64,000 nt of DNA from Streptomyces sp. WM6378. GTDB lineage: Bacteria; Actinomycetota; Actinomycetes; Streptomycetales; Streptomycetaceae. The stretch is taken from the NCBI RefSeq assembly GCF_001279695.1, contig NZ_LGDD01000293.1, forward strand, positions 101,422 through 165,421, in the 5' to 3' direction. The position numbers were made by a program, and so were the translations under genes. Below the pieces are notes generated by a model. The model saw only the letters and a program-made list of their open reading frames with translations, was not told the origin of the DNA and did no database searches. Below, piece after piece: positions 34,914 through 38,054 of the stretch. Numbering within the stretch: the first letter of the stretch is position 1; every line of letters starts with the position of its first letter.

Positions 34914-38054
<3,141 letters not shown>

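Follow-up and report, generated by a model that had tools for sequence, protein, structure and literature searches.

The only isoleucyl-tRNA synthetase gene of a Streptomyces draft genome encodes a type 2 enzyme with a swapped GXHH signature, and some relatives add a second copy that reads HYGH

Results

The window, by which we mean the whole 64,000-nucleotide stretch of Streptomyces sp. WM6378 DNA analysed here, carries ileS on its minus strand at 34914..38054. The open reading frame starts with an ATG at 38054 and encodes an isoleucyl-tRNA synthetase (IleRS) of 1046 amino acids, with MSQYRQVPAQ at its N-terminus and the stretch YEGPPTANGMPGAHHIEARVF at about residues 46-66 of the translation. 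The protein scored 905.7 bits against the ileS equivalog model TIGR00392, which places it above the cut-off of 621.4. When the protein was compared with solved structures by phmmer, 1ile and chains of 8c8u, 8c8v, 8c8w and 8c9d topped the ranking at 876-910 bits, as against 344-356 bits for 1ffy, 8c9e and 8c9f. We take the first set to be IleRS2 of Thermus thermophilus (1ile) and Priestia megaterium (8c8v and the other chains), and the second to be IleRS1 of Staphylococcus aureus and P. megaterium. With the entries typed in this way, the bit scores put the window enzyme nearer to IleRS2 than to IleRS1, as an earlier sequence-only reading of this DNA had proposed. Pfam searches of four neighbours of ileS returned a DivIVA protein, a DksA/TraR zinc-finger protein, signal peptidase II and a pseudouridine synthase, all of them ordinary.

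Residues 57-60, encoded on the minus strand at 37875..37886 by the codons GGC GCG CAC CAC, read Gly-Ala-His-His. In the phmmer alignments these residues fall on the HVGH of 1ile and 8c8v and on the GVHH of 8c8w, which we take for the laboratory GXHH mutant described in PMC10485003. The enzyme therefore has G/A-x-H-H at the HXGH position, the mark of a non-canonical IleRS2. The sequence-only reading had named Gly-Ala-His-His at the same residues, and both the translation and the alignment on His-Val-Gly-His agree with it. Since GAHH itself is aligned on HVGH, a normal HxGH serving that role at another place in the protein is ruled out. A sequencing error or a mis-framing is ruled out as well, because the same four residues, together with KMSKH, were read in all 120 of the best homologues (of 7,999 scored), and GAHH was also present in each of the 45 genus genomes read, the genome of the window included.

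Two further motifs were located in the translation on the minus strand. The second class I signature, KMSKH, occupies residues 598-602 (36249..36263) and was seen in 44 of the 45 genus genomes; in the one genome where it was unseen, the gene is truncated by its contig. The motif WTTTPWTL, which has a role in editing, is intact at residues 228-235 (37350..37373). The idea that KMSKH evolved as a companion to the swap was rejected, as 26 of 31 GXHH loci from the phylum read KMSKS, three read KMSKR and one reads KMSKH; in the remaining locus the script picked an unrelated stretch for this motif. At the position of the HYPFE motif, reported for the eukaryote-like IleRS group in the available text of PMC4861432, the window enzyme reads GYPHR (36429-36449). 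YPF was seen in 5 of 93 GXHH rows (77 had another sequence and 11 were unread) and in 55 of 99 HXGH rows (2 had another sequence and 42 were unread). Given GYPHR in the window and these counts, HYPFE is not diagnostic for GXHH members. The loss of HYPFE alongside the swap, although seen in these counts, is inseparable from shared ancestry, because the sampled Actinomycetota show a single split between HXGH and GXHH, and the absence of the motif may mark ancestry only.

A T-box leader (RF00230) precedes the gene on the minus strand at 38091..38329. A sensitive cmscan aligned it to model positions 1-219 of 219 with E 9.9e-10 and 49 bits, a score that falls short of the gathering score of 93 for membership of the family despite the full model span; for this reason the window gave no hit in a default Rfam scan. 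The T-box that the sequence-only reading had placed ahead of ileS is thus recovered by the sensitive scan. The specifier codon, read by eye from the printed alignment, is AUC. The T-box sequence GGGTGGTACCGCG lies at 38127..38139 on the minus strand and was also found upstream of ileS in 45/45 of the genus genomes tallied. Four further housekeeping loci, kept apart from that tally (L214, L217, L219 and L220), all read GAHH, and three of them have the T-box sequence, which our search expression did not find at L219. Altogether, of the 49 Streptomyces and Kitasatospora housekeeping loci, 48 carry the sequence.

Between the T-box sequence and the start codon we predict a sequestrator hairpin at 38063..38096 on the minus strand, formed by the arms CCTCCGACGGA (38086-38096) and TCCGCCGGAGG (38063-38073), which a script paired at 10 of 11 positions. 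The second arm covers the Shine-Dalgarno sequence GGAGG at 38063-38067. Candidate hairpins of this kind were found in 28 of 29 GXHH leaders and in none of 18 HYGH leaders, by a lenient rule that tolerated a single mismatch and G-U pairing, was run without a shuffled control and was applied to leaders already showing the T-box sequence. The letters of the arms differ yet remain complementary in L083, L084 and L085; L079 and L214 have only short imperfect arms, and L086 has none. HYGH leaders carry different letters, by eye CCCCGTGC against GCACGAGG in several. The hairpin was absent from a single-sequence fold of the window leader, which was mixed and had a z-score of only -2.2. By the lenient rule, and at the level of sequence, the leader combines a T-box sequence with a Shine-Dalgarno-hiding hairpin, as a translational ileS T-box would.

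The sequence-only reading had described this ileS as the only one of the window and probably the housekeeping enzyme. A genome-wide search extends the first point, as it returned one ileS across the 361 contigs (9.49 Mb) of the draft assembly. The other two matches, at 27-31% identity, both lie within a single frame on contig C287 that encodes a valyl-tRNA synthetase (ValRS; NF004349, 1176 bits), so a second ileS is rejected for this draft genome. The ValRS gene reads HLGH (PPNVTGALHLGHA) as well as KMSKS, and the canonical signature is thus retained by a related synthetase from the same strain. The single ileS in the draft genome, together with the T-box upstream, supports a housekeeping role for the window enzyme.

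Across the genus, an ileS match at E 1e-60 was found in 198 of the 199 genomes searched, our own included. Five of the 199 had two matches, and a real second ileS accounts for these in two only, G332 and G462. The two matches in G365 and G455 are a single gene split into two alignments, and G439 has two equal-scoring matches on contigs of similar length. In G455 (L034, L042; contamination 6%) the two alignments overlap in a frameshift-like manner, probably through an assembly error. The single-contig genome G371, 78% complete, showed no ileS at E 1e-20, probably because the assembly is incomplete.

Outside the genus, ileS matches in the class form two groups by identity, one at 53-74% and one at 39-44%. 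All 17 loci chosen from the first group read GXHH, and 13 of them have the T-box sequence; all 19 chosen from the second read HYGH with KMSKS, and 11 have the T-box sequence. In the phylum, 31 of 31 loci chosen from the matches listed read GXHH, eight with the T-box sequence. The phylum matches listed had E 7e-294 or better, the weaker ones entering the tally only through the class genomes, and IleRS1 or HXGH enzymes may well be among those weaker matches.

In a tree of 108 rows, one deep branch parts all 67 GXHH rows and the ValRS outgroup from all 40 HYGH rows, and no change of state occurs within either side. The tree was built by a quick method from hand-chosen rows, with SH-aLRT support only and long-branch warnings, and its root is unsure because the ValRS outgroup is attached by a long branch. 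The division of the sampled Actinomycetota IleRS2 into a GXHH side and a HYGH side in this quick tree is new here.

One genome departs from its congeners. In G571 (family f7, genus g9, outside Streptomyces), a 100% complete genome on one contig, a single match to ileS was obtained at E 1e-60. This gene (L064) reads GTHH and is 68% identical to the window, whereas the genes of the congeners G214 and G579 (L062, L063) read HYGH at 41% identity. The tree pairs the G571 gene with L078 of family f86 on the GXHH side. In this single case a GXHH gene has apparently taken the place of a HYGH housekeeping ileS.

Nine Streptomyces or Kitasatospora genomes were found to encode a second IleRS beside a GAHH enzyme. 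The second copy reads HYGH in 9/9, and the other copy in the same genomes, 83-90% identical to the window IleRS, reads GAHH in 9/9. The second copies fall into two kinds. A search of 392 genus genomes, a set that overlaps with the 199 above, with the second copy of G332 returned five matches at E 1e-250 or better: G332 itself, and G462, G608, G765 and G792 at 57-59% identity.

The copies in the latter four genomes we call SbzA-like (L071 12333-15431, plus strand, with L210, L211 and L213; 4 of 392 genus genomes). In G462, the one genome in which their neighbours were read, genes for an AMP-binding ligase and a GNAT protein come after the second ileS, and the opposite strand carries a methyltransferase gene. 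This order agrees with the arrangement sbzA-B-C and sbzD in the SB-203208 cluster, as given in the available text of PMC6331615, and for this reason the G462 copy is considered SbzA-like; those of G608, G765 and G792 are taken as SbzA-like through similarity only. All four read HYGH and all four have lost the first Lys of KMSKS, which reads AMSKA in G462, G765 and G792 and AMSKS in G608. The editing motif reads S[DE]xPW in the former three and WTRTPW in G608, and the G608 copy, 61% identical to that of G462, is by this motif less decayed. The T-box sequence was found at none of the three SbzA-like copies tested.

The second kind is represented by the G332 copy (L069 15891-19088, minus strand, with L129, L130, L131 and L152), which has HYGH, KMSKS, WTTTPW and a T-box sequence of its own. 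A named scan of its relatives showed HYGH in all of the best 80 of 562, mostly from Pseudonocardiaceae, and included four closely related genes, found in Streptomyces sp. MBT65, S. sp. A012304, S. sp. col6 and Kitasatospora aureofaciens. Each of these four has KMSKS, WTTTPW and the T-box sequence, as in G332. In G332 and in 4/4 of these relatives the ileS is adjoined by an operon with the end of a non-ribosomal peptide synthetase (NRPS) gene and genes for DUF2817, CmcI-like and JmjC-like proteins, and a phosphopantetheinyl transferase is present in four of the five operons. The NRPS operon was beside ileS at none of four Pseudonocardiaceae loci tested. Near the second ileS of G332, L070 5102-12372 holds an SNF2-like helicase gene and an MmeI/Eco57I-type methylase gene, which look like a restriction or defence island.

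The tree, which represents eight of the nine genomes with second copies (G765 entered twice, G608 left out), places the five copies beside the NRPS operon with Pseudonocardia. SbzA-like copies, from three genomes, form a separate group on a long branch with other Pseudonocardiaceae.

Discussion

Based on these results, we conclude with a probability of about 0.93 that the window gene encodes the Streptomyces housekeeping type 2 IleRS, a GXHH enzyme for which a millimolar Ki for mupirocin is to be expected and which is predicted to be under the control of an isoleucine T-box. In such an enzyme, where the first and third residues of the class I signature are exchanged, the third-position His would assume the place of the catalytic first His, as shown on relatives, and the window IleRS would remain active. 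The altered site would reject mupirocin, giving rise to the millimolar Ki. The Ki, the mechanism and an insensitivity of whole cells to mupirocin we infer from the characterised relatives. For the leader, its anatomy and a 2005 prediction (PMC1262725) suggest that uncharged tRNA-Ile would free the Shine-Dalgarno sequence from the sequestrator hairpin and allow more translation of ileS.

The link between GXHH and mupirocin, including the notion that it protects the host, is already published for the same genus. In the available text of PMC10485003 (2023), G/AXHH is assigned to 86 of the 163 IleRS2 in a tree and HXGH to 77, with the IleRS2 of S. griseus named among the carriers, and PMC4861432 (2016) gives a mupirocin Ki of 10 mM for SgIleRS, suggested to protect S. 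griseus. For DrIleRS2 the Ki is 6.6 mM, and exchange of the motif in DrIleRS2, TtIleRS2 and PmIleRS2 changed the Ki about 175 to 820 times (PMC10485003). The same available text reports the swap in no IleRS1, and engineered IleRS1 mutants formed no product. The hyper-resistance foreseen in the sequence-only reading would, by analogy with the two millimolar Ki values, hold for the window enzyme, and the mechanism that it proposed is the one these two papers describe for S. griseus. Its description of the swap as rare is contradicted by 86 carriers among 163 IleRS2 and by 45/45 of the genus genomes read. Its appeal to a genus rich in producers is beside the point for this antibiotic, because mupirocin is made by Pseudomonas fluorescens (PMC4861432, in the text available). 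In the 45 genus genomes read, that of the window among them, the target of mupirocin is of the published hyper-resistant kind. Mupirocin is therefore expected to have little value against the genus, and it could find use as a selective agent.

It is important to consider whether the swap reflects the history of a lineage, inherited along one deep Actinomycetota branch, and not a recent adaptation to mupirocin. The parting of 67 GXHH from 40 HYGH rows by one branch, with constant states on each side, speaks for this explanation, to which we give somewhat less than an even chance. Against it, the available text of PMC10485003 infers at least two independent gains of the swap and one natural reversion across bacteria, and in our own sample one genus has apparently exchanged its HYGH gene for a GTHH gene, although neither observation shows selection by mupirocin. 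Furthermore, the tree that favours inheritance is a quick one, with chosen rows and an unsure root.

The second copies are, in our view, a more useful outcome of this work than the confirmation of GXHH. Streptomyces make the IleRS inhibitors SB-203207 and SB-203208 (available text of PMC6331615 and PMC12945691), and the acquisition of a HYGH enzyme by GXHH-type Streptomyces suggests that the swap may not protect against every IleRS inhibitor of the genus. In the available portions of these sources SbzA is a biosynthetic transferase, and a review also calls it a self-resistance protein (PMC6331615, PMC12945691). Given this biosynthetic role, the SbzA-like group is weak evidence. The NRPS-linked ileS retains both the catalytic and the editing motifs, and the conserved operon that adjoins it makes a role in self-resistance plausible.

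We tentatively propose that GXHH could be a specialised shield against mupirocin-type inhibitors which would leave Streptomyces open to mimics of Ile-AMP; that lineages making or meeting such compounds may therefore have imported, at least two times, a HYGH IleRS from Pseudonocardiaceae; and that the copy beside the NRPS-DUF2817-CmcI-JmjC operon might confer self-resistance to an IleRS inhibitor. Taken jointly, these steps are more likely to fail at some point than to hold throughout. The five cases of a second, canonical-motif IleRS beside a conserved NRPS operon nevertheless offer a lead for the resistance-guided discovery of IleRS inhibitors.

The production of SB-203207 and SB-203208 by Streptomyces could also be read to mean that the swap is kept for protection against IleRS inhibitors in general, those made by Streptomyces included. 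We consider this improbable, as nine genomes add a second IleRS to the GAHH enzyme and all nine of these copies read HYGH, and crystals of GXHH PmIleRS2 still bind the adenylate analogue Ile-AMS (PMC10485003, in the text available). Finally, the idea that the window gene is a dedicated MupA/MupB-like resistance copy, acquired beside a sensitive housekeeping enzyme, can hardly be right: the NCBIfam MupA and MupB models cover most of the protein but score only 761.6 and 745.8 bits, far under their cut-offs of 1900, the draft genome has no other ileS, and nearly all genus genomes have a match, with the T-box sequence ahead of the gene wherever it was tallied.

Our reading of the window enzyme as a housekeeping GXHH IleRS2 finds its closest counterpart in the IleRS2 of S. 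griseus, which shares the genus, the enzyme type, the non-canonical motif and its status as sole gene (PMC4861432 and PMC10485003, in the portions available). As the SgIleRS motif was taken from the text of the paper and not from a sequence, this likeness rests on genus and motif. Similarly, the Deinococcus radiodurans IleRS2 (DrIleRS2) has a non-canonical motif, and its resistance is lost 823-fold with the canonical one (available text of PMC10485003), but it reads ALHH, with Ala first, and belongs to another phylum. The IleRS2 enzymes of P. megaterium and T. thermophilus are relatives in sequence that have HVGH where the window has GAHH (8c8v, 1ile), and they differ in this canonical motif and in Ki values of 0.2-1.1 uM (PMC10485003, in the text available). 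SbzA of the SB-203208 cluster resembles the present case in being a class I IleRS-like Streptomyces protein beside an ordinary IleRS (PMC6331615 and PMC12945691, in the portions available). The window gene corresponds to the ordinary enzyme, whereas in our SbzA-like copies the signature is HYGH and KMSKS is without its first Lys, a comparison drawn from gene order and description. The leader, in turn, resembles the actinobacterial ileS T-boxes of the 2005 study, whose set included Streptomyces genomes and whose available text describes T-boxes ahead of ileS in several Actinobacteria with hairpins that hide the Shine-Dalgarno sequence (PMC1262725).
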